Source: Peptostreptococcaceae bacterium (GTDB taxonomy: Bacteria > Bacillota > Clostridia > Peptostreptococcales > Filifactoraceae). Taken from it: DNA of 64,000 bases. The stretch is from the NCBI GenBank assembly GCA_030532705.1, contig JAUNKR010000001.1:62001-126000 (forward strand), read 5' to 3'. Of the stretch, positions 46,892 to 64,000 are shown piece by piece (the stretch's first letter is position 1; every line of letters begins with the position of its first letter). Both the position numbers and the translations under genes were made by a program. The notes beneath the pieces are model-generated. The model had not been told where the DNA came from. It saw nothing but the letters and a program-made list of their open reading frames with translations, and did not search any database.

Positions 46892-47263
46892 CTATCGTTC
46901 ATATTTACGAGCATGCTCCTTCAATTTTTCAAAGGTTTCTTCACTGATAACATGTTCGATACGGCAGGCATCTGCCATTGCCACGTCTGGAGTAACGCCT
47001 ATTGCGATCAAGTACTCTCCAATCAGTACATGACGTTCATATACACTTTGCGCGATTTTGTGTCCTTCTTCCGTGAGTTCGATCAGACCGCCATTGTCCA
47101 TTCGAATAAGATTTTTTTGGCGAAGCGACTTCATTGCGTTGCTTACACTTGGTTTCGAAAAACTGAGTTCATTTGCAACATCAATGGAGCGCACATAACC
47201 ATTACGAAGTTTTAATATGAGTATCGTTTCCAAATAATTTTCAGCAGATTCTTGAATTTTCAA
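46892..47263 (-). CDS. DtxR-family metal-dependent repressor
   Basis: 123 residues from a TTG start seven bases after GGAGG. Winged-helix DNA-binding domain with SIDVANELSFSKPSVSNAMKSL, then the dimerisation domain. Metal ligand positions: His in YERHVLIGE and the motif DACRIEH, which matches the DtxR Cys-x2-Glu-His and not the MntR Glu-x2-Glu-His. The position equal to DtxR Met10 / MntR Asp8 is Asn (SAENYLETI). No SH3 domain. Probably iron- rather than manganese-responsive, but the mixed ligand set leaves this open. Three kb from a haem uptake locus. Confidence 0.9.
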   Translation of the reverse strand: MKIQESAENYLETILILKLRNGYVRSIDVANELSFSKPSVSNAMKSLRQKNLIRMDNGGLIELTEEGHKIAQSVYERHVLIGEYLIAIGVTPDVAMADACRIEHVISEETFEKLKEHARKYER

Positions 47264-48106: not shown

Positions 48107-49666
48107 ATGAAAGAAAAAACAAAAAACAACAAACAAAAGAAGGGAGTCTTCAACGGTTTTCTTAACTTTGTAGAAAAAGCCGGCAACAGACTGCCTCATC
48201 CGGTGACGATCTTCGTCATTTTATCATTGGCAGTTATCGTGATCTCTGAACTGGCGCATCGTGCAGGACTTAGCACAACATACTATGATGCAAGAGAAAA
48301 AGCGGAAGTGACCGTTCAGGCGATCTCATTGTTTAATGCAGAAGGTCTACGATATATGTTTGACTCTGCGACCAAAAACTTTACGACCTATGCTCCTTTG
48401 GGAACTACGCTGGTAGCGATGCTTGGAGTAGGGGTCGCTGAAGAAACGGGACTTATTGGATCTACTTTGAAGAAGATCGTACTCAGTACACCAAAAAAAC
48501 TGATCACTGCAGCTGTTATTTTTATGGGGATCATGTCTAATATTGCTTCCGACGCAGGATATGTTGTTTTGATCCCGCTTGGAGCGATCGTGTTCCTAAG
48601 CTTTAACAGACATCCAATGGCAGGACTTGCAGCGGCTTTTGCCGGGGTATCTGCAGGGTTCTCTGCAAACTTGCTTTTGGGAACATTGGATCCATTGCTT
48701 CAAGGTATTACAAATGAAGCGATCAAGATCGGAGGGTCTGATGCAACGATCCTACCGACTGCAAACTATTACTTTATGTTTGTTTCGACATTCCTACTGA
48801 CCATCGTCGGTACGATCGTCACGGAGAGAGTGGTCGAGCCGAGACTTGGCACTTATGAAGGAGTCTATAAAGTGGATTCCATGGATATCAAACCGGAGGA
48901 GAAAAAAGGTCTTCGTGCAGCAGGGATCGCGATCCTTGGATTTATCGTTGTGATGGCATTATTGACAGTACCTCAAAATGCATTGCTCAGAACACCGATT
49001 ATCGAAGATAATGTATTGAAAAAAATGGATCTGAATCCATTCATCAGTCATGGATTGGTTCCTACGATCGCATTGTTCTTCTTGATCCCGGGAGTAGTAT
49101 ATGGTATCTTTGCCGGAAGTGTAAAGAACGATAAAGATGTCGTTCGCGGAATGAGCAAGGCGATGTCTACAATGGGAGGATTCCTTGTACTTGCTTTTGT
49201 TTCTTCTCAGTTTATCAACTACTTTAACTATTCAAAACTGGGTATCCTTTTGGCTGTAGGTGGAGCAAATCTACTAAAGAGTATCGGATTTACAGGACTT
49301 CCTCTTGTAGTCGCTTTCATCTTTGTATCTGCTTTCATCAACCTGTTCATCGGTTCCGCATCTGCTAAATGGGCGATCATGGCGCCGGTATTTGTTCCAA
49401 TGCTTATGTTGGTAGGGATCTCTCCGGCATTTACTCAGCTTGCGTATCGTATCGGAGACTCAACGACAAATATTATCTCGCCGCTGATGACTTATTTTGC
49501 GGTAATCGTAACATTTGCTCAAAAATATGATGAAGATACAGGTATCGGTACATTGATTTCATCAATGCTCCCATATTCGATCGCATTCTTGCTCTCATGG
49601 ACAGTTTTGATGATCCTATGGTATTTCATAGGACTTCCGATCGGACCTGGCGCATTTATGCACTAA
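48107..49666 (+). CDS. AbgT-family transporter
   Basis: 519 residues, ATG after TAAGGAGG. About 11-13 membrane helices with the AbgT start NFVEKAGNRLPHPVTIFVILS and motifs such as GLIGSTLKKIVLSTP, NIASDAGYVVLIPLGAIVF, and AYRIGDSTTNIISPLMTYF near the C-terminus. Members import p-aminobenzoyl-glutamate or export sulphonamides; aromatic or dipeptide substrates are likely. Ends at a strong terminator. Possibly regulated by the preceding receiver-like protein. Confidence 0.92.
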   Translation: MKEKTKNNKQKKGVFNGFLNFVEKAGNRLPHPVTIFVILSLAVIVISELAHRAGLSTTYYDAREKAEVTVQAISLFNAEGLRYMFDSATKNFTTYAPLGTTLVAMLGVGVAEETGLIGSTLKKIVLSTPKKLITAAVIFMGIMSNIASDAGYVVLIPLGAIVFLSFNRHPMAGLAAAFAGVSAGFSANLLLGTLDPLLQGITNEAIKIGGSDATILPTANYYFMFVSTFLLTIVGTIVTERVVEPRLGTYEGVYKVDSMDIKPEEKKGLRAAGIAILGFIVVMALLTVPQNALLRTPIIEDNVLKKMDLNPFISHGLVPTIALFFLIPGVVYGIFAGSVKNDKDVVRGMSKAMSTMGGFLVLAFVSSQFINYFNYSKLGILLAVGGANLLKSIGFTGLPLVVAFIFVSAFINLFIGSASAKWAIMAPVFVPMLMLVGISPAFTQLAYRIGDSTTNIISPLMTYFAVIVTFAQKYDEDTGIGTLISSMLPYSIAFLLSWTVLMILWYFIGLPIGPGAFMH

Positions 49667-49716: not shown

Positions 49717-50058
49717 CTATGCTTCTTACAGGGGGAAAATTAATCATAAACATAATGAAATTGATAAAAATATAAACAATAAGTACTTATAATAAACTTT
49801 TATGTCAAAAGATCGGATAAAATTGTGTAATGAACAGAAAATAAAATATCGATTGATTATACACTTAATAATTTATGATAGTTTGTTTCAAAAAATCAAA
49901 TAAAATATCGATCGATAAAATAGTATAATTACTAGAATAACTGATCTTTAACTCCATTGATATAACTCAAATTTAATTATACAAAAGCAATGAAAATGTT
50001 TGTAAAAAGGGTTAGGATGTGCTAATATATAAATGACATTGTGAAGATGGAGGAGTAA
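49717..50058. promoter_or_regulatory. Control region of the haem uptake locus
   Basis: AT-rich region with two direct repeats AAATAAAATATCGAT(T/C)GAT (49839-49857 and 49898-49916) 59 bases apart, a TATAAT at 49924-49929, and a second, better promoter TTGTAA (50000-50005)-17-TAATAT (50023-50028) 30 bases before the first NEAT gene. The repeats are possible operators for a repressor; the window contains a DtxR-family gene at 46892-47263 as candidate. Confidence 0.6.
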
Positions 50059-51396
50059 ATGAGGCGTTGCTTTTTATTTTTACTAATAGTTAGTTTAATA
50101 ATACCAACTTTTTCTTGGGGGATGGAAAAATCATTACAGGATGGACTTTATCAAGTGGAGGTTGGTCTTTGGCATGCTTATGAAGAAAAAGAATCGATGG
50201 GGAATACGGGCCTTGTATCAACTGCCGAGATCTTTGTTGAAAATAATAAAATGCATGCCTATCTGGGAATGAAAACCCTAACGGTTGGAGATATCACTAC
50301 ATCATTAACAAGACTTTTTTATGCGGATGAGGCAAGTAAAAGCTACAGATCTGCGGATACATACTTATTTGATATCGAAATTCCGAACGAAACGAAAAAA
50401 CGACCGAGGGTATTTGGGATCCCGCTTGAAGAGCAAAAAGAATTTTATAATCTATTGGTGGACCCGAAAGTTGCCGTGATGGGTACCGACCCGATCAAAG
50501 CAAGACTGAAGATCGACTGGACGACTTTAGAACCTATCGATATCGAAAAGTCAAATATCTACTCAAAAATCGACAAAGATCAAGCAGCACAGGAGAAACA
50601 GAAAGAAATATTAATACAGAATATACGCATCATCGATGAACAGGGCATCGATGGAGAAATAAATGTGGCATTGCTCACAAGGAGCAATCTTCAAAGTCAA
50701 GGCCTTACGATCGAAGCACTGGATCAAGTGAAGGGCTTTGAGATCACATCGCTAGAAAAGATCCAAGAGATCCCTTTTGATCAGACAACGGATGTGGACA
50801 AACAGGCGAAGGAAGTTGCTTTGCATGATGGAGCAAGCATTTTGTTCCAAGGAGAGAAGTCAGCAACGGATCTTTATTACAAGAAAGACGGCGATTTTGA
50901 AAAAATAGACTTTGAATCGACCGAGCAAGGACTTTTGGTCAAAAATGCAAGATACGGAACCTACGCTTTGGTAAAGAAAAATAATGTCCAACCAAAACCG
51001 GAAGCTGAGGCAACTTCTGAAAAACCATTGCCAACGGCCTCAAAACCGAAACCTAAGCCGATCAGCAGTGTGGTCCGACCGGTACCGAAGCAACAAGACT
51101 CTCCGAAGATCAAAGAAAAGAATGATATCCGGCAGGATCAAAATGCAGGGACAGTTGAGACGGTAAACCCTTCGATGCAAGAGCCATCATCCAACAAAAC
51201 AGAGAATACGATCGGTGCAATACAGACCAAAGAGCACACAGGGATCATCGTAGCGATCAGTTTATTGTATCTTTGCTTTTTGGCAGGCGGGGTATATCTT
51301 TGGAAAAGATTTTTGCCACATCTTTTTGATGAATTGGACCGAAGCAAATATCTGGAATTTTATGCTCTAAAAGGCGATAAAGTGGAAAATGGATAA
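50059..51396 (+). CDS. Membrane-anchored NEAT-domain haem protein
   Basis: 445 residues, ATG after TGGAGGAG. Signal peptide (1-20), then a NEAT domain (about 28-170) with DGLYQVEVGLWHAYEEKESMGNTG and KARLKIDWTTLEPI. A second, divergent region follows with RIIDEQGIDGEINVAL and others. A Pro/Lys-rich wall-spanning linker (about 310-390) precedes a membrane helix (GIIVAISLLYLCFLAGGVYLW) and a cytosolic tail. NEAT domains bind haem; this one is likely an early surface receiver in the relay. The following gene starts close by in the same direction. Confidence 0.85.
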   Translation: MRRCFLFLLIVSLIIPTFSWGMEKSLQDGLYQVEVGLWHAYEEKESMGNTGLVSTAEIFVENNKMHAYLGMKTLTVGDITTSLTRLFYADEASKSYRSADTYLFDIEIPNETKKRPRVFGIPLEEQKEFYNLLVDPKVAVMGTDPIKARLKIDWTTLEPIDIEKSNIYSKIDKDQAAQEKQKEILIQNIRIIDEQGIDGEINVALLTRSNLQSQGLTIEALDQVKGFEITSLEKIQEIPFDQTTDVDKQAKEVALHDGASILFQGEKSATDLYYKKDGDFEKIDFESTEQGLLVKNARYGTYALVKKNNVQPKPEAEATSEKPLPTASKPKPKPISSVVRPVPKQQDSPKIKEKNDIRQDQNAGTVETVNPSMQEPSSNKTENTIGAIQTKEHTGIIVAISLLYLCFLAGGVYLWKRFLPHLFDELDRSKYLEFYALKGDKVENG

Positions 51397-51463
51397 ATTC
51401 CAAGGAGACTCTATTTTAGAGAGAAGGATCCTTGTTTATAATTGGCAAAGGAAATGTAGCTTA

Positions 51464-52402
51464 ATGAATATTTTGAAAAAGTTGATGATCGTATTGACGA
51501 TGGGATGGCTGCTCTCCGGTATGTCCTATGCTGATACGGTAGAGATCGCATCCGTTACAGCACATTATAAGCACCCGGTCACCGGGGCAGTCGAAGACAG
51601 CGGAAACGATATTGCGATCGGTCAGGGAATGACGGAATCGGTACTGGATCCGCAAGCCTTGATCGAAGTGGACGGCAATGGCAAAATATATGGAACTTTC
51701 CGATTGCATTTGGCGGATCAGATCAATAGCTATAAGATATCCGTACAAAAAAGCGGCAATAGCGAGTTTTATTCCGTCAGCACAACGGAAATGCAAAGAA
51801 AGGACAACAGTATAGATTTTCGGATCGCTCTTCCATCGAAGCAAAGCATCTTAAGGATCGATGCTTTCGTCAATGCGATGGGACGTTCGGTCATCTTCTA
51901 TGGGAAGATCGGAAGCTTGGTAGAAGGGAATACGGATTTTATAGTATCCGTTGATCCGACTAAAAAAGATGCACCGGATCCGGTAGAGTCTCAAGCGCCG
52001 GTAGAAACATCAGCGCGGGAGCAGATCATCGAAGAAGAACACGCTCAAGAGCAAGAAGAGACACAAACTCCCGTCACACCCGAAGAGCCTGCTCAAGAAC
52101 AAACAGCTCAAGAAGAAAGGATCGAATTGACAGATCCGCATCACGGATTACTGATGAAAGGGGATCCGAGACTCGGCGGTGATCGAGAAGCAGTTCACAG
52201 TGAGCAAGAGGCAGAGGAAAAGATCGAAGTGGGCTACGGTCCATTCACGATGATGATGATCACCTCTTTGGTAACAGTGCTGGGGATGTTCTCCTTGCTG
52301 ACTCTGATCTCAGGGATCGGCGTGATGATCTATTTCTATCTTTTAAGAAAAAATAATGATAGGAGGGAAGCGAGACTGTATGGATTCAACAAAAAAGAAT
52401 AG
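51464..52402 (+). CDS. Shp-like haem-binding surface protein
   Basis: 312 residues from the ATG at 51464; a start at 51389 is possible but would put 25 residues before the signal peptide. Signal peptide (ending SYA), then the Shp haem domain: TAHYKHPVTGAVEDSG, IGQGMTESVLDPQALIEV, ending NAMGRSVIFYGKI. The two Met that serve as axial haem ligands in streptococcal Shp (GQGM and NAMGR) are both conserved. An acidic Glu/Gln/Pro linker, a membrane helix (MMMITSLVTVLGMFSLLTLIS) and a basic tail follow. It would pass haem to the lipoprotein encoded next, whose start overlaps this gene. Confidence 0.9.
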   Translation: MNILKKLMIVLTMGWLLSGMSYADTVEIASVTAHYKHPVTGAVEDSGNDIAIGQGMTESVLDPQALIEVDGNGKIYGTFRLHLADQINSYKISVQKSGNSEFYSVSTTEMQRKDNSIDFRIALPSKQSILRIDAFVNAMGRSVIFYGKIGSLVEGNTDFIVSVDPTKKDAPDPVESQAPVETSAREQIIEEEHAQEQEETQTPVTPEEPAQEQTAQEERIELTDPHHGLLMKGDPRLGGDREAVHSEQEAEEKIEVGYGPFTMMMITSLVTVLGMFSLLTLISGIGVMIYFYLLRKNNDRREARLYGFNKKE

Positions 52403-53408
52403 TTTATACGAAGTGGATCCGTTAGGTCGTCCGCAAACTCCGATAGATAAAGAAGCGACTGCCGAGAGAGCATTTCAACGATACTTTCGTCAGGCGATAC
52501 TCGTTGTTCTGGTATTCTCTATGATGCTCTTTGCGGTCGGATGCGTCGACCAAAGAGCAGGAGCAGAGAAAGCAGATGCGATCTCTCAGTCCACAGCGGT
52601 AGTTGACAATACGAAAGATTGGCCACAGACGAACAGAAGGATCGTCGTGACCTCTATGGCGACAGTCTATATTATGGAAAAACTCAAGGTGGACCTTGTC
52701 GGGATCCCTTCGAGCGATATCGATAATGTGCCTTCTGCATATCAAAATGCGACTTTGGTAGGATCTGCAATGAATCCGGATATTGAGATCATTCGCTCTT
52801 TAGAACCGAGTTATGTGTTCAGTCCGGTGAGTTTGATGGCAGATCTGAAGCCCAAATATGACCAAGCGAATGTAGAATACGGTTTTATCAACTTGAACAA
52901 TGTCGAGGGAATGTACGAGAGCATCAAAGATCTGGGAAAACTTCTCGGCAGAGAAAAAGAAGCGGCGGTATTGGTCGAAGAATACGAAAGCTTTATTGCC
53001 GATTTCAGAAAAAGAAATGAAGACAAAGAAAAGAAAAAGGTATTGATCCTAATGGGATTGCCGGGCTCTTATGTCGTAGCGACGGAGTATTCTTACGCCG
53101 GAAGCCTTGTCAAAATGGCAGGCGGCGAAAATGTATATACCAGTGAGGGAGAGCCTTTTATCAATGTTAATATCGAAGATATGCTTCAAAAAGATCCGGA
53201 TATCATCCTTCGGACCGCACATGCTCTACCGGAAGATGTAATGGGTATGTTTGCTAAAGAATTCAAAGAAAATGATAACTGGAAACATTTTAGAGCAGTC
53301 CAAGAAAATAAAGTCTATGACCTGGACTATACTAAATTTGGGATGAGCGCAAAATTCAACTATCCGGAAGCGCTGGAAGATCTTGAGGAGATATTGTATG
53401 CGAGCTAA
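52380..53408 (+). CDS. Haem ABC transporter substrate-binding lipoprotein (IsdE/HtsA-like)
   Basis: 342 residues from ATG 52380, overlapping the previous gene by 23 bases; a GGAGGG lies 12 bases upstream. The N-terminus is unusual: about 45 charged residues before the hydrophobic stretch LVVLVFSMMLFAVGC with its lipobox. The periplasmic-binding fold is typical of class III haem/siderophore proteins: RRIVVTSMATVYIMEKLKVDLVGIP, EIIRSLEPSYVFSPVS, LMGLPGSYVVATEYSYAG, DPDIILRTAHALPE. It hands haem to the permease. Family assignment is supported by position after Shp. Confidence 0.9.
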   Translation: MDSTKKNSLYEVDPLGRPQTPIDKEATAERAFQRYFRQAILVVLVFSMMLFAVGCVDQRAGAEKADAISQSTAVVDNTKDWPQTNRRIVVTSMATVYIMEKLKVDLVGIPSSDIDNVPSAYQNATLVGSAMNPDIEIIRSLEPSYVFSPVSLMADLKPKYDQANVEYGFINLNNVEGMYESIKDLGKLLGREKEAAVLVEEYESFIADFRKRNEDKEKKKVLILMGLPGSYVVATEYSYAGSLVKMAGGENVYTSEGEPFINVNIEDMLQKDPDIILRTAHALPEDVMGMFAKEFKENDNWKHFRAVQENKVYDLDYTKFGMSAKFNYPEALEDLEEILYAS

Positions 53409-54414
53409 AGAAAAGAATACAAAGATCGGAGCAACGCGGATACTATTGGCTTTTGTTGTCATGATCGCACTGCTGGTCGGGCTGTTTTTCCTATCTGTCA
53501 ATTTAGGAAGCCTGCCGATCTCTCCGAGTCAGATGATACGAGGTCTGTTCTTTGAGTTTGACCCGGATGTAGCCACTGTCTATGATGTTCGCTTTCCGCG
53601 GATCATCATTGCATTGATCGGAGGCATGGCGCTTGCGATCTCTGGGACGATGCTACAGGCAGTGATGAAAAATCCTCTGACAGATCCGGGAATTATCGGA
53701 ATATCCTCCGCAGCGGCATTGGTCGGTGTGATCGTGACGGGTTTGTTCCCTTCATTATATTTCAGTATCCCGCTGATCTCCATACTGGGTGGATTGATCG
53801 CCTATCTATTGATCTACTCGCTGGCATGGGATGGCGGAGTGATCCCGACTCGATTGATATTGGTCGGAGTCGCTCTCAATATGACCTTTATGGGTATCGC
53901 TCAAGGGCTTGCCGCTATGGGTGGCGCCGGAATGAGCGTGACACAATCCATCGTTGATGGCAATATCGTGCAAAAGACCTGGTCCGATGTTCGATTGCTT
54001 GCCGTTTATGTCGGCATCGGGATCTTTCTGGCGATGTTTACAGCTAGAACTTGTAACTTACTAAGCCTTGATGATCAAACCGCAAGAGGACTTGGTGTCA
54101 ACGTAAACCGCGATCGTTTTCTGGTCGCACTGATCGCGATACTTCTTGCCTCTGTAACGACATCGATCGTTGGGATCATCGGATTTTTGGGATTGCTCGT
54201 TCCGCATATCGGACGGATGATCGTTGGTTCAAATCACAAAGTCCTGCTTCCTTTTTCGGGATTGTTTGGCGCTTGGCTGCTCTTGCTGAGCGATACGGTC
54301 GGGCGAACGATCGCCTATCCGTATGAGGTCCCTGCTGCAGTCATCATGGCGATGGTGGGTGGACCGTTCTTCATTCTATTGCTTAAGTTGGGAGGGAAAA
54401 ATTATGGAAATTAG
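53398..54414 (+). CDS. Haem ABC permease (FecCD family)
   Basis: 338 residues, ATG after GAGGAG, overlapping the previous gene by 11 bases. About ten membrane helices with the FecCD motifs RFPRIIIALIGGMALAISGTMLQ, NPLTDPGIIGISSAAAL, GFLGLLVPHIGRMIVG. Homodimer forming the haem channel. Corresponds to HtsB/IsdF in relatives. Confidence 0.95.
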   Translation: MRAKEKNTKIGATRILLAFVVMIALLVGLFFLSVNLGSLPISPSQMIRGLFFEFDPDVATVYDVRFPRIIIALIGGMALAISGTMLQAVMKNPLTDPGIIGISSAAALVGVIVTGLFPSLYFSIPLISILGGLIAYLLIYSLAWDGGVIPTRLILVGVALNMTFMGIAQGLAAMGGAGMSVTQSIVDGNIVQKTWSDVRLLAVYVGIGIFLAMFTARTCNLLSLDDQTARGLGVNVNRDRFLVALIAILLASVTTSIVGIIGFLGLLVPHIGRMIVGSNHKVLLPFSGLFGAWLLLLSDTVGRTIAYPYEVPAAVIMAMVGGPFFILLLKLGGKNYGN

Positions 54415-55159
54415 ACATCTCAATTTCAGCTATGGAAAAAAGACGATCCTGAATGATTTGAGTCTTTCCTTTGAAAAAGGGAAGATCACGACTCTTTTAG
54501 GTGCAAACGGTAGCGGAAAAACAACATTGTTTAAGCTTTGCACTCGAAACCTCAGACCCAAAAGAGGATTGATCATGCTGGATGAAGAAAATATTTTTCA
54601 TCTCAAAAGACGGGAATTTGCTCAGAAAGTGGCGATCGTACATCAGCAAAATCGTGTCACGGGAACCATTACCGTTCGAGAACTGGTAAGCTATGGGCGA
54701 ACACCTCATATAAAAATGATGCAGCAGGCAACAAAAGAAGATGACGAAGCGATCGACTGGAGTTTGGAGGTCACCAATCTGAAAGAGATAGCCAACGAGC
54801 AAGTCGTTTCTCTGTCGGGAGGACAGAGACAGCGAGTCTGGATCGCGATGGCTTTGGCACAAAAGAGCGAAATGATCTTTTTGGACGAACCGACTACTTA
54901 TTTGGATGTGCGATATCAGGTTGAGCTTTTGAATCTCATCCGATCACTAAACGAAGATTTCGGACTGAGTATTGTGATGGTACTGCATGACATCAATCAA
55001 GCACTCCAATATTCAGATCATCTTATCGGCTTGAAAAATGGAGAGCTACTGTTTTCCGGGAGACCGGAAGAGGTCATCACAAAAGAAAACATTTCATCAC
55101 TTTACCAAATTCCTTTACGAACAACAATATTTGAAGGGAAGCCGTATGTGGTGATCTAA
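54404..55159 (+). CDS. Haem ABC transporter ATPase (FecE/HtsC-like)
   Basis: 251 residues, ATG after GGGAGGG, overlapping the permease gene by 11 bases. Walker A LLGANGSGKTTLFKLCTR, signature VVSLSGGQRQRVWIAMA, Walker B MIFLDEPTTYLD, switch His in VLHDINQAL. Powers haem import with the two preceding genes. The gap to the giant gene is 118 bases. Confidence 0.95.
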   Translation: MEIRHLNFSYGKKTILNDLSLSFEKGKITTLLGANGSGKTTLFKLCTRNLRPKRGLIMLDEENIFHLKRREFAQKVAIVHQQNRVTGTITVRELVSYGRTPHIKMMQQATKEDDEAIDWSLEVTNLKEIANEQVVSLSGGQRQRVWIAMALAQKSEMIFLDEPTTYLDVRYQVELLNLIRSLNEDFGLSIVMVLHDINQALQYSDHLIGLKNGELLFSGRPEEVITKENISSLYQIPLRTTIFEGKPYVVI

Positions 55160-55277
55160 AAGGAAAACTATTTTATGAGCGTTAAGATCTATAGGATCTA
55201 TTAAACTTTATTTACTAATATTAATCGGGTATCACAGCAATGGCTGATACTATAAACAAAATTTTGAGGAGGTAAAC

Positions 55278-58200
55278 ATGGGTAATTTCATCAAAAAGTG
55301 TATGTCTATACTACTTTTGGTGTCGATCGTAAGCACGAGCGTGTTCCCAAGCTCTTTTGCAAGTTATGCACAAGAGATGCAAAGCGAGCAAATCGTTAGT
55401 ATCGACCCGGCAGACAATACATTAGTTAATTCACCATCGGATGCTCAAAGATTGAGCAAAGAAACGGCGGGAATGCCTGAGGGGGGAGGAGAATCTGCGC
55501 TTAAAGCCGGTGCTCCGGATGCGCTGGCATCACCGCTTGACAGTGAAGATAAATTAAGCGAAATATTTAAGATCAAGGACATCGGTCTGGACCTTTTGGG
55601 CGAGACCTTGATAAATCCGATCACGGGAGAAGTAATCGACGAGCGGAAAGAAAGTATCTTGATCGAAGCGGACTATGATGGCGCAAGCCTTGACAATGTG
55701 GTAAAAACAAGAATAAAAGAGGTCTGGATCGATGAAGTCAGTATTCCGATGAGAGATATCGTCACCGATCTTCCGAATTTCTATTTATATCAGGCGAAAA
55801 ATATTACGATCACGGCAACATATGTAGATGGGACCAGAGCAGTCAATGATTTTAAGAAGCGGGACGCGCATAGAGTCGAGATCGTATTTGATGACGGATC
55901 AAGGGTCGAGTACCAAGACGCCGGCTATACGAAGCGTGACTTCACCAAGGATCCGGCACCACCTCCGAGAACGGAGCAACCGCCGGAGCCAATCAACAGA
56001 ACGGTAAAAGGCTATCTTGTAAAAAAAGATAACAAAAAAGCGAAATCGATGGCTGATGATGCTTTGGTAAGAGAAGTTCAAGTCCTATCATCCGATGTCG
56101 CTCCGATGCCTAATGTAAAGTTTGCTGATATCACCATTTCTTTCAATCCTATTTCATTAGGAAATATTAGCGGAAAGATCAAAGCGGTCTCTTATAAGGC
56201 GATGACCGATATGAAGGCAGCCAGACCGGTGGTTGGGAAAGATGGTTCATTTGCGATCTCTTATCCGGAATTTGCATTGCCTCCGGAAGGCTCATCTAAA
56301 GATACCGAGATCGAATTGGAATTTGACATCGATCTGGGATCAAGTGCACCGATGAAACAATCCGCAATCCTTATTTTGGATTGGAACGATGACTTCAAAT
56401 TTGAGGGTGCCGATCCGGGGCCATCTCCCGGAGAAGAAACACCGAAGCCGGGCATTGCGGATCTATACATCATCAAGGATGTTGCTGTTCAAAATCGCTA
56501 CAGTGTAGAACAATTGGAAGTTGCTATCCATCAGAAGGCAAATGAAAAAGCTTCGATCTCAAAGAGTCATATGAATGAATTATCGAGAGTGAAGATCAAT
56601 GGAGTATTCTTTGACCAATCGGAAGCGGATTTCACGCAATCGTTGATATATGACTTTTTTTCGATAGAAAAAAAGGTGATCGATCAGGCGAAAAAGAAAA
56701 CCCCGATCGAAATGGAGATATGGTTTAAAGACGGTTCAATGGTCAAGAACACTGCAAAGGACGATACGCCTTCACAACCGGAACCTCCAAAAGAAGTTAA
56801 AGGATACTTGCTGAATAAAAATGAAAAATCGGCTTCGCTTGCGAATAAAGCATTAAGAAATATTGAAGTGAAACCTGTCGTATCAACAGAAAACCAAGGA
56901 AAGAAATTCTACGAACTCACCCTGAATTTCTTCAGTATCAGCATAAGTGATAATGAAACTGTTGAGATCAATAAGTTTTTGTATCAAGATGGAAGCCGGA
57001 TGAAAGCGGCAGGCACAGAAAACAGCTATCTTTATACGATCTATAAGCTGTTGATCCCTGCAGAAATGGTTCATTCTGCAAACAGTACAAAAGATACGAA
57101 GATCGCGGTCCAGTATAATTTGAATACCAAGAAAGATGGATTCAAAGATCCTTTTGAGGCGGTCCTTCTTTTGGACTGGAATGGAGACTTCACACTTCCA
57201 AACGATCAGCCGGAAGCGCCTGGCAATTTTGCTGAAGGGTTTACGGTAGAAAATGTTCAGCTTAAAGAAGATGCGAAAGAGATCCATGTTACTCTAAATA
57301 AAGCTTTAGAAGCAAAAGATCTTGCGCTTGTAAAAACTGTACAGGTCGATGATCATAAATTTGAGCTTCAAAGCAATGATCTGGCTCAATTAGAGAGCGG
57401 GAAAGTGTTAGTCATTAAAAAAGATGAGCTCTTCAATAAGGCGAAAGAGAGATCTGTTAATGGCTGGACTTTGAAAGTCGTCTTTAAGGACAGATCGGTA
57501 TTGAGCTTTGTTGTAAAAGCGACAGCTCCATCCGAAGGAAAAGTTGCAGAGAAATACACATTGACTAAAGTACTGACCGATCAGGGTTGGAACAAAAAGC
57601 AAGTGCATTTTGTCTTTGAACCTAAATTAAATGCCAAAGATGCACATGGTATAAAGAAGATTGAGATCAACGGTAGGGTTTTTGAGAATGATCCGAAGAT
57701 CTTTTTCCCTAACTCAGATCTGAATCTTGAAACGACGAATGAAGATGTCATTGCGGCGATAAAAGCCAAAGGATCGACTGTTCTGAAAATTACTTTTGGC
57801 GACGACAGTATCTTAAATTATGGAGCAGCAGATACTCCTGATACACCGGCTGAAACTATTGCGAGCAAACATAAGATAACCTCTGCAGAGATCCGCAAGG
57901 GATATTTGAGAGAAGAACTGCATATCGGTTTTGAGAAAAACTTCCCTAGAGAAGCCATTGCAAAAATAAAACAGATCAAAGTAAATGGGACGGTTTTTGA
58001 AAAAGTATCTACAATGTTCTTTACGAGCCGTGAGTGGAAATTATATTCGTCTGACGAGCAAGTGGTCCAAGCTGCAAAAAGCAAGACTCCGATCGCAGTA
58101 GAGATCATTTTTGAAGATGATTCAATATCATCCCATGGCGGATCGACACCGCCTCCGCCTACACCACAGCCACCAAAACCTCCACAAGAAGGAGAGGCGG

Positions 58201-61200
58201 CAGGTCACGGCATTCGAGAGATGAAAAAAGATGAGACAGACAAAGAGTTCTGGATCTTTTTTGAAAAAGATATACCGAATTTCTGGAAATCCAAAATCAA
58301 GAAACTCCAGATCAATGGTACGGACTTTGAGCTTCAGCCAACAGATCTTGATGTCAGATCATCATCCATTGTATTCAAAAGACAGGATATTTTGGACAAA
58401 GTATTCCCGGTAGCGGATGTGAACACACTAAGTATCATCATCACTTTCGATGACGGATCTCAGATCAAGAAAAATGTTGTTGAAGTTCCGAAAGAGCCTG
58501 AACTTACGATAACATCAGAGCTCCAAGATGGAGAATACACACTGACTTACCAAGCATATAAGCACGGAAGTACCCATGAGATCTCCACGTTGGCAGGATT
58601 TTTTGACGTTCGTGCAAAATTGGTCGTCGCAGGTGAGAAGAAAACGGTCACGCTACTAAATCATACGGGAGCGGCTATGATGCTCGACTTTGCACTCAAG
58701 ACGGGAGAGAGCTTCACCGGCATTCCAAAAACAAATATCACTCATACGTTCAAAGGGGATATCGCTACAGCTCAATACTCTTTCGATCTGCAAGAATTGA
58801 CAGGCAGAAAGGTCGTTGCCGTACTTGGCAGCGGTCCGATGGGTGGAAATCAGGGAGAGATCGGACAGTATGATAATCCAAACTACAGAAAAGCGGATAT
58901 CGTATTTGATAATGAGGTCATCAAAGGCTGGACAGAATTTAAATTTATCGAAGACGCAAAGAAAAATTCAGAAGCAAGTCACAAACGATTGATCGACGGA
59001 TTGATCAAAAATGGAGTGGATACAAATAACGACGGAGAGATCTCCGAGCAGGAACTGAGAGATGCAAAAGGGATAAGAACACAAGTTGCCGGCAAGATGC
59101 GCTCCAATGTGATCGATATGGAAGGCATCAAAGTGGATGACATCAGTATGTTGAAGCACTTGGGACCGGGCGTCAAGTTCTTGAATTTGAATGGATGCGG
59201 TATCAAAGAACTTCCTCAGGATGTATTTCAAAATGCGACCGGAGTCAGAGAACTGTATCTAGGTGGAAACCATATCAAAGAAATACACCCGAGAACTTTT
59301 GACAAGATGATAAACCTGGAGTATATCGATTTTGACGGAAACCGATTGGGTGCGATACCGGAGGGAATCTTTGATAAAAACACTGCGCTTGAGAGTGTAT
59401 CTTTCATGAACTCCGGCGTCACATCGCTTCCAAGCGGAATGTTAAAAAATCTATCTAAATTAAGATCGCTTTATTTACAGGAAAATAGAATAACAACGCT
59501 TCCGGATGATTTCTTTGAAGGAGCCCAAAGATTGAATGATGTGCATTTGGGACATAACAAGCTAACGAAATTGCCTGAAAGCTTGGGAAGTGTTGAAAGG
59601 TTGAAGGTGATTTCAGCAGAGCACAACGAGATCACCAGAGTGCCGGATTCTTTGGCTAATTTGTCAAGGCTGGAAACGCTCGATCTGGAAAGCAATCGAG
59701 TAGAATATTTCCCGACCTCTCTATATGAGAATATGATCCGATTGGCGGCACATACCCAAGTTCGACTGGATCTTTCGATGAATGACCTCAAAGAGCTTCC
59801 GGTGGATGAGATGATCGCAGCGTTGGAAAGTGGCGGGAAGATGCTCACAAAGTTTGAGGTCAACAAAAACTATCTAAAGCCGGTGCTAACAAAAGACGAA
59901 GAGAACAAACTTAAAAGACTCGGTGTAGATTTCGATCGAACGCAAGAGACTTACTATCCTCAAAAAGGAAGTATCGGAAGCGTTTTGACAGCTTCCAAAG
60001 GAAAGATCGAACTGAACCAAGAGTTTGATATCTTGGAGCTATATTATTGGGATCAGGGAGACAGTCCACGCTATGGAGGCGTCCAAGAGTTTAAGACAAA
60101 AGAAGAATTCCTGAAATACCTTTTGGGTCAAGGAAGAGACTATCACAAGGTGGATAGAAACATCCCTCGTGATGAAGCGATCCAGAGCATCCTAAACAAA
60201 AAGGGCATCGAATGGGAAGTTGAAACGATCATTATAAAAAATGGTCAAGAACTATTCCGAAATACTTTGCAAAAAAATCCGAAAGAAGGCTTGGTCCAAA
60301 CATATCAAGATCCTACGATGAAGACCGGGGACAGATATACTTTGACAAAAAAATTGATGATCAAAGGAGTTTTCGGATTTGCGGTCCAGTTGGAGAACAC
60401 GGCCGAAGGAATATCGAGCGGAGATTCACAGCAGCCGGATATCAGCACAAAGAATGTAAAAGTACAGATCAACCGAAGAAACGAAAATACTAAGATGCAA
60501 ATGGTAAATGACGGGCTCAACCCGATCGCAAAGATCGAAAAAATAGGTGAAAAGTATCGTTATACCATCGAGTATCGATCCATCACGGTATCCGGTGTAA
60601 AGGGTGACATCAGCAACTTCAGAGTTCTTATCAACGGAGCTCCTACAGAGATCGTTCCAACACCGATCCAAGGTGACTATGAGAAGAAATATGTTTTTGA
60701 ATTGGATCAAGATCTCAAAAGAATACCGATCAAATTTAGAGTAGAGCTGATGGCTCAGGACTTTGATGCGGATCTTGTATTCGGGGACTCGGAGGTTCAA
60801 CCGGATCCTGACAGAATGATCAAGGCATATATCTTGAAAGAAAACGAAGATAAGCTGTCTATGGCGAATGATGCGCTCGTACATGATGTAGCGGTCAAAA
60901 CGATCGGAGATCGGTACGAAATAAAGCTTCAATTTAACGACATTACGATGGGAGCCATTACCGCCGGGATAGATACCCTGTTTGTAGATCTGGGTCCAAA
61001 CAACAAAGTAGAGGCTACAAAGATCTCAAAAGGCGTATTTACTTTCAAAATACCGGTATCAATGGTGACTGATGAGACTCAAGACACAAAATTGCCAATA
61101 GAATTTACAGCAAAAGGAAACGGCTTCAATAAAAACTATAAAGCGGATCTGCTTCTGGATTGGAACAAAAACTATGTTCCGTCCAAACCGGAAGTACCGC

Positions 61201-62918
61201 TGGATGGCAAAAAAATACCGGCTCGTGTCCTGACACCGGACGGCAAAAAAACTTCGATGGCAGACAAAGCACTGGAAGCAGTCACTGTCAAACCGAGTGA
61301 CAAGACTTCCGGAGCGTTCAAGCTGGTAACGATGACATTTAAGTTCAAAGAGCTTGCGATCAAGAGATCGAATGCTACGATCGATGTGCTTTCAGGCGAT
61401 ACAGTCAAAGCAAGCGTGAAAACATTGGAAGTCAAACTAAGAGATAAGTGGATGAAGGCCGCTCCGGTAGAAGGGCAAAAAGGCGTATTCACATTAGATA
61501 TGTTTGAGAATGTGATCTTAGATGAGAATGCTCTTGAAGATACAAGATTAGCGATCCGGATCACGACCGATCCGGCTGTACAAGGACATACAGGTCCGCA
61601 GGAAGCATTGCTTGTTCTGGACTGGAATGGAGACCTTAAGGTCGATGATCAAGGAAATGTGACCCCACCACCGAAACCGCCGGTAACCCCTCCTGGAGGC
61701 GGAGGATCGGGCTCTACGGAAGAGACATCTTTTGTTAATGTATGGCTGAAGAAGAAGAACAGCAATGAAGCATCGATGGGTAACGGATCTTTGAACAAGA
61801 GAGCAAAAGTAGTTCGCAAAGGCAATGAGTACACTTACACGCTTACTTTCGATCCGATGGAAGTAGATTTTGGCGGTCAAAAGATCCGAGGGACCGTATC
61901 TTCAATAAACTTACCGGATCATTCCGGCGTAAGCATAACAGAATCGATCAACGGATCGTCGAAAGAATATACTTTCACGCTGAATGAAAAAGTTTCAGAA
62001 CTTCTGATATCCTTTGAGGTGGACGGAGTCAGCGTGATGGGAAGACAAGAGGCGTATGTTGTTTTTGATTGGACCGGAAACAATTCTGCACCGATCGGTG
62101 GTGGCGGTACACCTGGAGGAGCAGGCGGCACTACGATCCCGGACAACCAGGTACCTTTGGCGGGACCGGAACGATCCGAAAAAGAACTTGTAGAAAAAGC
62201 ACAACGGATCATCAATAACAAAGACACTGCACAATATAAGAAGTATTATAAACCTGAAACCATCAAAGCGATCAGCAAAGCATTGGAAGCTCATCAAAAC
62301 AAAGAGAAAGATGCTCTGCAGAAACTTCAGGCGGTCCTTGAATCGGCTCGATTGGAGAGGATCAACAGCATCTTGAGTGGAGGCTATATGAGCGGATATC
62401 CGAACAGACAGTTCAGACCGAACAATAAGATCACTCGAGCGGAAGTTTCGGCAATGTTTATGGAATTGATCGAAGATGAAGCGAAAGAAAAAGTGGCATT
62501 CAAAGATGTAAAAGACGGTTTATGGTACTCGGCAGCAGCGAATAAGATGGCATCTTTGGGATATATCCGTATGAGCGAAGACGGTATGTTCCAGCCAAGC
62601 AAGGCGATCACTCGAGCAGAGTATGCGTATATTCTGGCAAAACTTAAAAATTTACCGGCATCTGACAAGAAGATGAAAGATGTACCGGCAGATCATTGGG
62701 CAGCATCAGCGATCGCATCTTGCATCGAAGCAGGCATCATCGCAGGATACAGTGACGGCACATTCAAGCCGGATCGAGAGATCACTCGAGCGGAAGCTGT
62801 GGCAATGATGAGCAGAACATTTGAGATCGCATCCAATACCAAAAACAAAGAAGCGTACAGCGATGTGAGCAAGACTCACTGGGCATATGATGTGATCATG
62901 ACAGCAAGTAGAAGTTAA
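55278..62918 (+). CDS. Giant NEAT/LRR/SLH surface protein, Shr-like
   Basis: 2546 residues, ATG after GAGGAGG. Order: signal peptide (1-32); an unknown beta module in six copies (about 95-215, 395-493, 654-747, 759-851, 864-955, 977-1068); NEAT-like domains at about 241-377 and 507-638; a classical NEAT (1075-1213; DGEYTLTYQAYKHGS); an EF-hand-like loop DTNNDGEISEQEL (1248-1260); leucine-rich repeats (1299-1510; LRSLYLQENRITTLPDDFF); an unknown stretch (1575-1710); four further NEAT-like domains (about 1726-1836, 1848-1966, 1979-2119, 2152-2268); a helical linker (2300-2360); and three SLH domains (2365-2545) for wall attachment. The NEAT-LRR plan resembles streptococcal Shr, and the SLH anchor resembles Bacillus IlsA. 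Expected to strip haem from host haemoproteins and pass it to the NEAT and Shp proteins upstream. Boundaries are by eye. Confidence 0.9.
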   Translation: MGNFIKKCMSILLLVSIVSTSVFPSSFASYAQEMQSEQIVSIDPADNTLVNSPSDAQRLSKETAGMPEGGGESALKAGAPDALASPLDSEDKLSEIFKIKDIGLDLLGETLINPITGEVIDERKESILIEADYDGASLDNVVKTRIKEVWIDEVSIPMRDIVTDLPNFYLYQAKNITITATYVDGTRAVNDFKKRDAHRVEIVFDDGSRVEYQDAGYTKRDFTKDPAPPPRTEQPPEPINRTVKGYLVKKDNKKAKSMADDALVREVQVLSSDVAPMPNVKFADITISFNPISLGNISGKIKAVSYKAMTDMKAARPVVGKDGSFAISYPEFALPPEGSSKDTEIELEFDIDLGSSAPMKQSAILILDWNDDFKFEGADPGPSPGEETPKPGIADLYIIKDVAVQNRYSVEQLEVAIHQKANEKASISKSHMNELSRVKINGVFFDQSEADFTQSLIYDFFSIEKKVIDQAKKKTPIEMEIWFKDGSMVKNTAKDDTPSQPEPPKEVKGYLLNKNEKSASLANKALRNIEVKPVVSTENQGKKFYELTLNFFSISISDNETVEINKFLYQDGSRMKAAGTENSYLYTIYKLLIPAEMVHSANSTKDTKIAVQYNLNTKKDGFKDPFEAVLLLDWNGDFTLPNDQPEAPGNFAEGFTVENVQLKEDAKEIHVTLNKALEAKDLALVKTVQVDDHKFELQSNDLAQLESGKVLVIKKDELFNKAKERSVNGWTLKVVFKDRSVLSFVVKATAPSEGKVAEKYTLTKVLTDQGWNKKQVHFVFEPKLNAKDAHGIKKIEINGRVFENDPKIFFPNSDLNLETTNEDVIAAIKAKGSTVLKITFGDDSILNYGAADTPDTPAETIASKHKITSAEIRKGYLREELHIGFEKNFPREAIAKIKQIKVNGTVFEKVSTMFFTSREWKLYSSDEQVVQAAKSKTPIAVEIIFEDDSISSHGGSTPPPPTPQPPKPPQEGEAAGHGIREMKKDETDKEFWIFFEKDIPNFWKSKIKKLQINGTDFELQPTDLDVRSSSIVFKRQDILDKVFPVADVNTLSIIITFDDGSQIKKNVVEVPKEPELTITSELQDGEYTLTYQAYKHGSTHEISTLAGFFDVRAKLVVAGEKKTVTLLNHTGAAMMLDFALKTGESFTGIPKTNITHTFKGDIATAQYSFDLQELTGRKVVAVLGSGPMGGNQGEIGQYDNPNYRKADIVFDNEVIKGWTEFKFIEDAKKNSEASHKRLIDGLIKNGVDTNNDGEISEQELRDAKGIRTQVAGKMRSNVIDMEGIKVDDISMLKHLGPGVKFLNLNGCGIKELPQDVFQNATGVRELYLGGNHIKEIHPRTFDKMINLEYIDFDGNRLGAIPEGIFDKNTALESVSFMNSGVTSLPSGMLKNLSKLRSLYLQENRITTLPDDFFEGAQRLNDVHLGHNKLTKLPESLGSVERLKVISAEHNEITRVPDSLANLSRLETLDLESNRVEYFPTSLYENMIRLAAHTQVRLDLSMNDLKELPVDEMIAALESGGKMLTKFEVNKNYLKPVLTKDEENKLKRLGVDFDRTQETYYPQKGSIGSVLTASKGKIELNQEFDILELYYWDQGDSPRYGGVQEFKTKEEFLKYLLGQGRDYHKVDRNIPRDEAIQSILNKKGIEWEVETIIIKNGQELFRNTLQKNPKEGLVQTYQDPTMKTGDRYTLTKKLMIKGVFGFAVQLENTAEGISSGDSQQPDISTKNVKVQINRRNENTKMQMVNDGLNPIAKIEKIGEKYRYTIEYRSITVSGVKGDISNFRVLINGAPTEIVPTPIQGDYEKKYVFELDQDLKRIPIKFRVELMAQDFDADLVFGDSEVQPDPDRMIKAYILKENEDKLSMANDALVHDVAVKTIGDRYEIKLQFNDITMGAITAGIDTLFVDLGPNNKVEATKISKGVFTFKIPVSMVTDETQDTKLPIEFTAKGNGFNKNYKADLLLDWNKNYVPSKPEVPLDGKKIPARVLTPDGKKTSMADKALEAVTVKPSDKTSGAFKLVTMTFKFKELAIKRSNATIDVLSGDTVKASVKTLEVKLRDKWMKAAPVEGQKGVFTLDMFENVILDENALEDTRLAIRITTDPAVQGHTGPQEALLVLDWNGDLKVDDQGNVTPPPKPPVTPPGGGGSGSTEETSFVNVWLKKKNSNEASMGNGSLNKRAKVVRKGNEYTYTLTFDPMEVDFGGQKIRGTVSSINLPDHSGVSITESINGSSKEYTFTLNEKVSELLISFEVDGVSVMGRQEAYVVFDWTGNNSAPIGGGGTPGGAGGTTIPDNQVPLAGPERSEKELVEKAQRIINNKDTAQYKKYYKPETIKAISKALEAHQNKEKDALQKLQAVLESARLERINSILSGGYMSGYPNRQFRPNNKITRAEVSAMFMELIEDEAKEKVAFKDVKDGLWYSAAANKMASLGYIRMSEDGMFQPSKAITRAEYAYILAKLKNLPASDKKMKDVPADHWAASAIASCIEAGIIAGYSDGTFKPDREITRAEAVAMMSRTFEIASNTKNKEAYSDVSKTHWAYDVIMTASRS

Positions 62919-62929
62919 TGTAGACCGGA

Positions 62930-62965
62930 TCGTCGGCGGTCAATGCCGCCGGCGACCTTTCTTAG
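62930..62965 (+). terminator. GC-rich hairpin between giant gene and protease
   Basis: GTCGGCGG pairs with CCGCCGGCGAC (with two unpaired bases) around TCAATG, followed by CTTTCTT. Probably a partial terminator that reduces transcription into the protease gene. Confidence 0.65.
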
Positions 62966-62978
62966 AGGAGGATATTTG

Positions 62979-64000
62979 ATGAAACGCAAAATTTTATCCG
63001 CGGTTTTATCAGCAACTTTAGTGCTTTCTTCTTTTGCACCGTACAGCTATGCAGATCCTTTGAACAGATCCGATGAGGATCTGTTTGAGATGGTATCTCT
63101 GAATACGGAAGAAGGATCATCCGCTGTAGCGGATCTAAAGTTGCAGAAAGATCCGGTATTGCTTGATTTTTTGAGACAAGCCGGATCAAAATATCAGGAT
63201 GATTCCGAGATCCGATTTATTGCGGAGATCAACGATAAAACCATGGTAGAAAAACATGCTCTGATCGCACCGGATATTTCGCAGGTGCGCTCCGAGAATG
63301 GATTATCTGAACAACTAGAGTATGCAAAAAGGTCACAAGACCTTTTGATCAAAGCGATCGACGATTTGGGTGTCAAATATGAAGTGACCGAGAGCTATGA
63401 TGTTGCTTTGAACGGCTTGGCGATCCGTACGACTTTTGCGGATGCGAAAAAGATCGTACAGCTACCGGAAGTATTTACGGTAGAAGTAAATCGAGTGATC
63501 CCGGCTCCGCCTGAACTTCCGGGGAGAAGCGGATTTGCTCTGAGAGATGCGTCAAGCAACAATATGATCAATGTCCCTCGAGTTGGAAATCGATTTAACG
63601 GAAAAGGTCAATTGATCGCGGTGATCGACTCCGGCGGAGACCCGACACATGATATTTTCACAAAGCCGGGAATATCGCCGGATGGAAGAAAGATCCAAGA
63701 TGCGGCTACAACGGATCGTCTGGTGCAAGAGCATGATCTATCCAGAGGAAAATATTTTAATGACAAAGTTCCTTTCGGATATAACTATGCTGATAAAAAT
63801 CAGAACATAACAGAGACATCAAAACGATCTCACGGTATGCACGTTGCCGGGATCATTGCTGCAAATACTCAAAAGCTGCAAGGAGTCGCTCCGGAAGCGC
63901 AAATTGCCGTGATGAGAGCATTCGGTGCGAATGTACTTTTTGGAGGGACCACTCCGGAGATCTATAACAAGGCGATCGATGATTCCGTAAAACTTGGAGC
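62979..64000 (+). CDS. Secreted subtilisin-family protease (3' end outside window)
   Basis: About 340 residues are visible; the ATG follows AGAGGAGG and the gene runs off the right edge. Signal peptide (about 1-27, ending SYA), then a propeptide-like region (DSEIRFIAEINDKTMVEKH to AKKIVQLPEVFTVEVNR). The catalytic domain starts with the Asp217 motif LIAVIDSGGDPTHD, His285 in SHGMHVAGIIAAN, and continues GVAPEAQIAVMRAFGAN. The Ser motif is beyond the edge. The type resembles lactocepin/C5a-peptidase cell-envelope proteases. Next to the haem locus, so it may digest haemoglobin, though this is inferred. Confidence 0.9.
   Translation, partial: MKRKILSAVLSATLVLSSFAPYSYADPLNRSDEDLFEMVSLNTEEGSSAVADLKLQKDPVLLDFLRQAGSKYQDDSEIRFIAEINDKTMVEKHALIAPDISQVRSENGLSEQLEYAKRSQDLLIKAIDDLGVKYEVTESYDVALNGLAIRTTFADAKKIVQLPEVFTVEVNRVIPAPPELPGRSGFALRDASSNNMINVPRVGNRFNGKGQLIAVIDSGGDPTHDIFTKPGISPDGRKIQDAATTDRLVQEHDLSRGKYFNDKVPFGYNYADKNQNITETSKRSHGMHVAGIIAANTQKLQGVAPEAQIAVMRAFGANVLFGGTTPEIYNKAIDDSVKLG

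Follow-up and report, generated by a model that had tools for sequence, protein, structure and literature searches.

What kind of haem uptake system, if any, is encoded by the NEAT, Shp and transporter genes in a 64,000-nucleotide stretch of a Peptostreptococcaceae bacterium (GenBank assembly GCA_030532705.1, contig JAUNKR010000001.1, positions 62,001 to 126,000; hereafter the window), and how does its giant NEAT/LRR/SLH surface protein relate to streptococcal Shr and to IlsA of Bacillus? The initial annotation of the window had described an expanded Shr-Shp-Hts-like system with SLH anchoring and a protease, combining the Shr route with the IlsA style of wall attachment. We consider it likely that the cluster encodes an iron-regulated haem uptake system of the Shr-Shp-Hts type, with an SLH-anchored, expanded Shr-type receptor, in an anaerobe near the oral Peptostreptococcaceae (NCBI naming). 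The genes, their domains, the conservation of haem ligands, the synteny and a conserved operator-like site are established directly.

Open reading frames together with Pfam and NCBIfam models place seven same-direction genes at 50,059 to 64,000: a NEAT membrane protein (ORF1), Shp, an IsdE/HtsA-type lipoprotein, a FecCD permease, an ATPase, the giant and the start of a subtilase, in agreement with the order first annotated. Each neighbouring pair overlaps from the NEAT gene through the ATPase, and 118 nucleotides separate the ATPase from the giant. Beyond the window edge, where the subtilase reaches its full 1768 amino acids (aa), comes a further NEAT protein (at most 340 aa, with a signal peptide), and a terminator-like hairpin, recognized by eye, lies after it in the last bases of the contig. 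The eight-gene order of the source genome (G000) is identical in one genome of the same genus (G004) and mostly retained in another (G005) and in [Eubacterium] yurii. The nearest named records are the Peptostreptococcaceae metagenome-assembled genome that carries the G004 locus, with 91% identity across the receptor core, and [Eubacterium] yuri​i ATCC 43714, with 35%.

Seeded profiles resolved the giant into the order HID, NEAT-a, HID, NEAT-b, four HIDs, NEAT1, LRR, NEAT2 to NEAT5 and three SLH domains, giving seven NEAT-like and six HID-like domains; Pfam models recognized NEAT (57.7 bits, three stretches over threshold), LRRs and three SLH domains. Because matches to seeded profiles are circular, the NEATs were scored by hold-out, each with itself and all relatives of at least 40% identity removed and with 500 shuffles for comparison. 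Six of the giant's NEATs reached 48.6-88.0 bits, against 6.5-10.5 for the best shuffle. NEAT1 scored 6.5 bits, level with its best shuffle (6.4), and was missed because it is of a different NEAT type: its sole PDB match up to an E-value of 10 is the Linker-NEAT1 structure of Shr (9w5z_A). The best PDB match of the general NEAT profile is Shr NEAT2 (E 2.5e-5). The count of seven NEAT-like domains, originally made by eye, is thus borne out by held-out profiles for six and by the Shr structure for NEAT1, as is the claim of more NEATs than in Shr (seven against two).

Shr of Streptococcus pyogenes has been described as HID1-HID2-linker-NEAT1-LRR-NEAT2 (PMC12796733). The core of the giant, NEAT1-LRR-NEAT2, follows the Shr order, with modules added on both sides. 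Because Shr itself has this order, the NEAT-LRR combination is native to the Shr family, and the LRR need not derive from IlsA. An alignment search with NEAT1 found matches in 9 of 391 genomes of the class and in 10 of 348 genomes of the class of Gemella, the latter strong in Gemella alone, and the surroundings of six class matches were examined (G045, G132, G156, G199, G278 and G305). The same core occurs with a CWB2 anchor in the Clostridia relatives G132 and G156, with LPXTG-like tails in the Clostridia relatives G045 and G199, and with LPXTG in Gemella; the anchor is thus the part that is exchanged.

Arrangements vary in other relatives as well. In G132 and G156, which belong to the same order (L134, L135), a NEAT-Shp-lipoprotein-permease-ATPase run precedes a NEAT protein, which carries a CWB2 anchor in G132, and the Shr-type receptor lies elsewhere in the genome. 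In [Eubacterium] yurii (L026 9375-10643), the protein preceding Shp carries a NEAT and three SLH domains and replaces the membrane-anchored NEAT protein of the window.

The ligands that hold haem iron in Shr are Met390 and Met475 in NEAT1 and Met997 and Met1107 in NEAT2, and the authors of that work regard ligation by Met as a hallmark of S. pyogenes (PMC12796733); the Met spacing in the printed Shr chains, 85 and 110 residues, fits those numbers. We aligned Shr NEAT2 with 31 NEATs from this locus and its relatives (n=32). The two ligand columns are the Met-richest of the alignment, with Met in 25 of 32 sequences at Met997 and in 18 of 32 at Met1107, and at most 12 in every other column. Among the Shr-like NEAT1s, Ser is present in 14/14, Met475 in 13/14 and Met390 in 9/14. 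The window system comprises ten NEAT-like domains (the giant's seven plus those of ORF1, the last NEAT protein and the protease tail). None of the ten has YXXXY, the motif of Tyr-type Isd proteins, near the C-terminal strand; the one YXXXY string of NEAT2 lies 37 residues before its end, off that strand. Clostridial NEATs that lack YXXXY and carry a conserved Met were noted in 2014 (PMC4143258). Together, these patterns suggest that haem iron in the window system is probably held by Met, not Tyr, and what is new is the extension of this predicted Met-type chain to a Shr-type receptor and the entire route.

The remaining members of the route are consistent with this assignment. The NEAT of ORF1 falls below the Pfam cut-off (24.3 against 32.8 bits) yet is recovered by the held-out profile (Table 1), and a hydrophobic segment around aa 394-415 makes this protein a probable wall-to-membrane haem carrier. 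Shp matches PDB 2q7a (E 6.1e-22), and the two ligand Mets are in register; it has a hydrophobic segment around aa 286-319, and its true start may lie downstream of the longest-ORF start. The Shp model matched in 23 of 391 class genomes, and both ligand Mets are kept in 22/22 homologues, a set defined as matches above 130 bits, including those from the class-genome survey and excluding its weaker matches. The lipoprotein matches PDB 5joq (E 2.1e-66) and 2q8p (E 6.5e-58), and its Met and His align with the positions in IsdE (2q8p) and Lmo2184 (5joq), which in IsdE are the haem ligands. In HtsA, the ligands are Met-79 and His-229 (PMC5026354). A lipobox-like LFAVGC near aa 58 implies that the lipoprotein may start downstream, and relatives of the ATPase begin at MEIRHLNF.

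Table 1. Positions of features in the window, with the evidence for each (bits are profile scores)
Feature	Position	Strand	Evidence or remark
DtxR/MntR-family metal-dependent repressor, candidate cluster regulator	46892..47263	-	PF02742 54.2 and PF01325 33.8 bits, both over cut-off
Promoter-like TTGTAA - 17 nt - TAATAT	50000..50028	+	hexamers by eye, not from the scan
Operator-like site TTAGGATGTGCTAA within promoter	50012-50025	+	conserved in three same-genus genomes
NEAT protein (ORF1), signal peptide and C-terminal membrane segment	50059..51396	+	held-out NEAT profile 69.9 bits
Shp, membrane-anchored haem protein	51389..52402	+	PF11545 156 bits, cut-off 26.4
IsdE/HtsA-type haem-binding lipoprotein	52356..53408	+	TIGR03659 IsdE 355.4 bits, cut-off 298.65
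FecCD-type permease	53383..54414	+	PF01032 280 bits
ABC ATPase, conserved part from ~54404	54323..55159	+	PF00005 113 bits
Giant SLH-anchored Shr-type receptor, 2546 aa	55278..62918	+	Pfam, held-out NEAT profiles, PDB match of NEAT1
Six HID-like domains, two NEATs interleaved	55563..58484	+	repeat profile seeded on these six
NEAT-a	55995..56402	+	66.6 bits held out; SM present, second Met displaced
NEAT-b	56784..57194	+	48.6 bits held out; neither ligand column Met
NEAT1, Shr NEAT1 counterpart	58527..58925	+	9w5z E 3.9e-12; Met475 equivalent kept, Thr for Met390
Leucine-rich repeats	59172..59777	+	PF13855 96.5 bits; end placed from sequence
NEAT2, Shr NEAT2 counterpart by position	60444..60782	+	66.6 bits held out; Met in both ligand columns
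NEAT3	60804..61175	+	79.7 bits held out; first Met only
NEAT4	61206..61640	+	50.6 bits held out; first Met only
NEAT5	61722..62084	+	88.0 bits held out; SM, second Met three residues past Shr column
Three SLH domains, cell-wall anchor	62373..62915	+	PF00395 114 bits, 3 stretches; limits from sequence
Hairpin between giant and protease genes	62930..62955	+	11-pair stem
S8 subtilase, N-terminal 352 aa within window	62943..64000	+	PF00082 53.6 bits

The operator-like site reads TTAGGGTGTGCTAA in G004 and forms a perfect palindrome, TTAGCA-TG-TGCTAA, in G005. Searched with zero mismatch, the 18-base pattern occurs once each in G000, G004 and G005, always at this position, and in none of eight other genomes of the family. 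A DtxR/MntR-type gene lies near the cluster in the same three genomes, and in S. pyogenes the DtxR-family protein MtsR represses the sia operon (shr, shp, siaABC) (PMC6593403). The site, the nearby gene and the MtsR precedent make control of the cluster by iron or manganese likely.

All six HID-like domains (aa 96-216, 395-495, 653-748, 758-852, 864-955 and 976-1069 of the giant) precede NEAT1, the place of the HIDs in Shr. An AF2 model of one such domain, compared in VIA, ranked Shr HID2 (8dov) second (Z 6.3, 3.1 A, 83 aligned), tied with unrelated folds; Foldseek matches to this model all had E-values of 0.1 or more, and the 50 listed included no Shr HID. These comparisons point weakly to a kinship with the haemoglobin-binding domains of Shr, and the domains are hence named HID-like only. 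Clear HIDs exist in the relative G199, which has three PF07550 domains, one matching Shr HID2 at E 1.2e-10. A PF07550 survey matched in 23 of 398 phylum genomes, mainly in proteins that were left aside, and was not used as support. In the sister genome G004, a separate 1113-aa frame on C2 (L073, L077) carries two PF07550 domains over cut-off.

Several observations weigh against this haem uptake reading of the locus. PF07550 passes its cut-off (22.3 bits) in the giant with a single fragment of 22.4 bits, spanning the last two HID-like domains, and fails it on the giant in the whole-genome search (15.8 bits); the HID profile matched no Shr HID in the PDB, and hhalign of the HID-like domains with true HIDs gave 53% across 33 columns. 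Ligand conservation is also uneven. Strictly, Met fills both columns in just two of the ten domains, those of NEAT2 and the last NEAT protein. The first Met is joined by a displaced second in ORF1, NEAT-a and NEAT5 and stands by itself in NEAT3 and NEAT4; NEAT1 has the second only, and both are absent from NEAT-b and the protease tail. The operator was called from symmetry and conservation, a HutW-type anaerobic haem-degrading enzyme scored below cut-off in all 11 family genomes searched, and the source genome (2.08 Mb) is a draft of 72% completeness.

In the mechanism that we propose, the HID-like domains would dock a haem source, and NEAT1 and the remaining NEATs would capture and retain haem, as their homology and kept ligands suggest. 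The membrane NEAT protein and Shp would receive haem next and hand it on to the IsdE/HtsA lipoprotein, which would deliver it to the permease and ATPase, with the iron mostly Met-ligated as in streptococcal Shr and Shp, unlike the Tyr of Isd proteins. A repressor of the DtxR/MntR type would probably close the promoter under metal plenty. The ligand-free NEAT-like tail of the subtilase may dock it to the receptor or to the receptor's cargo, and the enzyme would open haemoproteins there. Haemoglobin binding, the direction of transfer, repression and the substrate of the protease are the parts of this model that we infer. A bolder version, which we regard as doubtful, is a thioether relay in which ferrous haem would cross the Met NEATs and Shp to the Met/His lipoprotein without redox change, and a subtilase docked through its degenerate NEAT would strip haemoproteins at the receptor. 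If it were true, the Met-type NEAT, called characteristic of S. pyogenes in 2025, would be the common clostridial form, with SLH, CWB2 and LPXTG anchors freely swapped.

The protease of this model admits another explanation. The full subtilase (PF00082 165.4 bits, plus PA, fn3_5 and FIVAR) has its D, H and S catalytic motifs at aa 227, 296 and 622, and its C-terminal domain is NEAT-like: 23.4 bits held out against 10.7 for the best shuffle, and 97% (E 1.1e-10) against the NEAT profile in hhalign, with no Met or Tyr in either ligand column. The fold model of this tail has a pLDDT of 67; its Foldseek matches include NEATs, none below E 0.02, and VIA ranks isoamylase (Z 9.2) above NEATs (Z 6.9), so the NEAT assignment rests on the profiles. 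It is quite possible that this enzyme is a C5a-peptidase-like surface subtilase unrelated to haem and a mere neighbour, given its 131.8-bit match to the NCBIfam SGO_0316 family (though far under the cut-off of 1400), a paralogue elsewhere in the genome (contig C42, 34% identity) and the hairpin between the giant and protease genes. G004 has that hairpin too, and hairpins unlike it in sequence occupy this spot in a second copy of the locus (contig C34) and in [Eubacterium] yurii; as the hairpin of the window has no long T run, it may be an RNA-processing or attenuation element. Against a chance neighbour stand the NEAT-like tail and the position of the gene, which directly follows the Shr-type gene in both copies of the source genome (contigs C73 and C34), in G004 and in [Eubacterium] yurii, and lies next to it in G007. 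Tentatively, the subtilase would open haemoproteins for the receptor.

The second copy on C34 (L012 1-10171) is diverged and holds the last 702 aa of a giant (some 72% identity with the G004 giant), a protease with 73% identity, a NEAT protein and a transporter of the AbgT type. C73 stops just past its NEAT protein and C34 starts inside a giant, so the two copies may be a tandem duplication. The AbgT-family transporter, without obvious haem connection, lies upstream of the cluster in G000 (48107-49666) and G004 and downstream of the C34 copy. Away from the cluster, contig C36 (L011 5348-10336) encodes a surface protein of 1663 aa that has NEAT-like stretches and, by eye, a C-terminal copper-amine-oxidase-N-like domain.

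An unlikely alternative is that the giant is mainly an adhesin, its LRR, SLH and HID-like domains binding host or partner cells, with haem binding minor or lost in most NEATs. One ligand Met is missing from two of its NEATs and both from a third, and NEAT1 has no Met390; LRR arrays often serve as binding modules, and Shr also promotes attachment of S. pyogenes to laminin (PMC6593403). However, the giant shares its gene run with Shp and a haem importer, and Met475, the dominant Shr ligand, is kept by NEAT1 in all but one of the 14 relatives. Least probable by far is an Isd/IlsA-type tyrosine NEAT system with LRR and SLH from the IlsA lineage: NEAT, LRR and SLH do co-occur and the IsdC model and NF033190, the IlsA-type NEAT/LRR/SLH model, match weakly (98.9 bits for the latter, whose cut-off is 1275, with the best match at the SLH end), but YXXXY is missing from all ten C-terminal strands, the nearest PDB matches are Shr and not Isd, and LPXTG- or CWB2-anchored NEAT1-LRR cores in relatives show that the anchor was swapped and not the core. 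An IlsA hybrid origin was rejected, as Shr itself has an LRR and relatives retain the core under other anchors.

The Shr-Shp-Hts-type reading of the locus bears out what the initial annotation observed and part of its interpretation: domain searches and the NEAT1-LRR-NEAT2 core agree with an expanded, SLH-anchored, protease-linked route, and of the IlsA-like wall attachment the SLH anchor stands while the hybrid with IlsA does not. The annotation would have been undercut by NEATs that do not bind haem together with a lack of iron regulation; two of the ten domains lack both Shr ligand Mets and the others keep them in whole or in part, and the operator-like site suggests control by a metal repressor. 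The HID-like domains, Met-type ligands, operator-like site and NEAT-like protease tail were absent from it.

These data extend a known kind of iron-scavenging machine and leave its basic mechanism unchanged. The Shr-Shp route reaches beyond streptococci into anaerobic Clostridia, including [Eubacterium] yurii, with fixed parts (the NEAT1-LRR core, two-Met Shp and importer) and variable ones (the number of NEAT and HID-like domains and the cell-wall anchor). The claim that Met ligation in NEATs is confined to S. pyogenes is called into question, and the naturally occurring NEATs that retain two, one or none of the ligand Mets would allow the contribution of each Met to be assessed. A NEAT-like domain fused to a protease suggests that the capture of haem is tied to the digestion of haemoproteins. 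Four features deserve tests: the expansion, the exchange of anchors, the wide occurrence of Met-type NEATs and the fused protease. In the limited literature that we searched, neither a Shr-type cluster anchored by SLH domains nor a subtilase that bears a NEAT is described.

Among known systems, IlsA of Bacillus cereus and BslK of Bacillus anthracis share NEAT and SLH anchoring with the giant. IlsA has a single NEAT, the NEATs of both proteins are of the Tyr type, and neither is known to have a Shp partner. IlsA has an LRR as well (PMC2777315), and BslK combines a single NEAT with SLH anchoring (PMC4143258). The NEAT-LRR surface protein of Gemella shares the HID-like/NEAT1/LRR core and differs in its LPXTG anchor, its one or two NEATs and its retention of both NEAT1 Mets; its description is as NEAT-LRR_5 only, compared with B. 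cereus (PMC7136413, in the text available). The Cht locus of Clostridium perfringens (ChtD, ChtE, ChtABC) likewise has clostridial NEATs without Tyr, and ChtE and ChtA retain the Met/His residues of Shp and HtsA, for which a Shp/HtsA-like Met route was proposed in 2016 (PMC5026354). Unlike the window, Cht is sortase-linked and has a Fur box, and the accessible text of that report names no Shr-type giant or protease. Closest is the Shr-Shp-HtsABC system (sia operon) of S. pyogenes, which shares the NEAT1-LRR-NEAT2 receptor, two-Met Shp, Met/His lipoprotein, FecCD importer, a DtxR-family regulator and, probably, Met instead of Tyr as the ligand of haem iron. In contrast to Shr, with two NEATs and two HIDs, the giant has seven NEATs and six HID-like domains, is SLH-anchored and lacks a Met390 equivalent in NEAT1, and the window adds to the streptococcal system a membrane NEAT protein and an adjacent protease with a NEAT-like tail.

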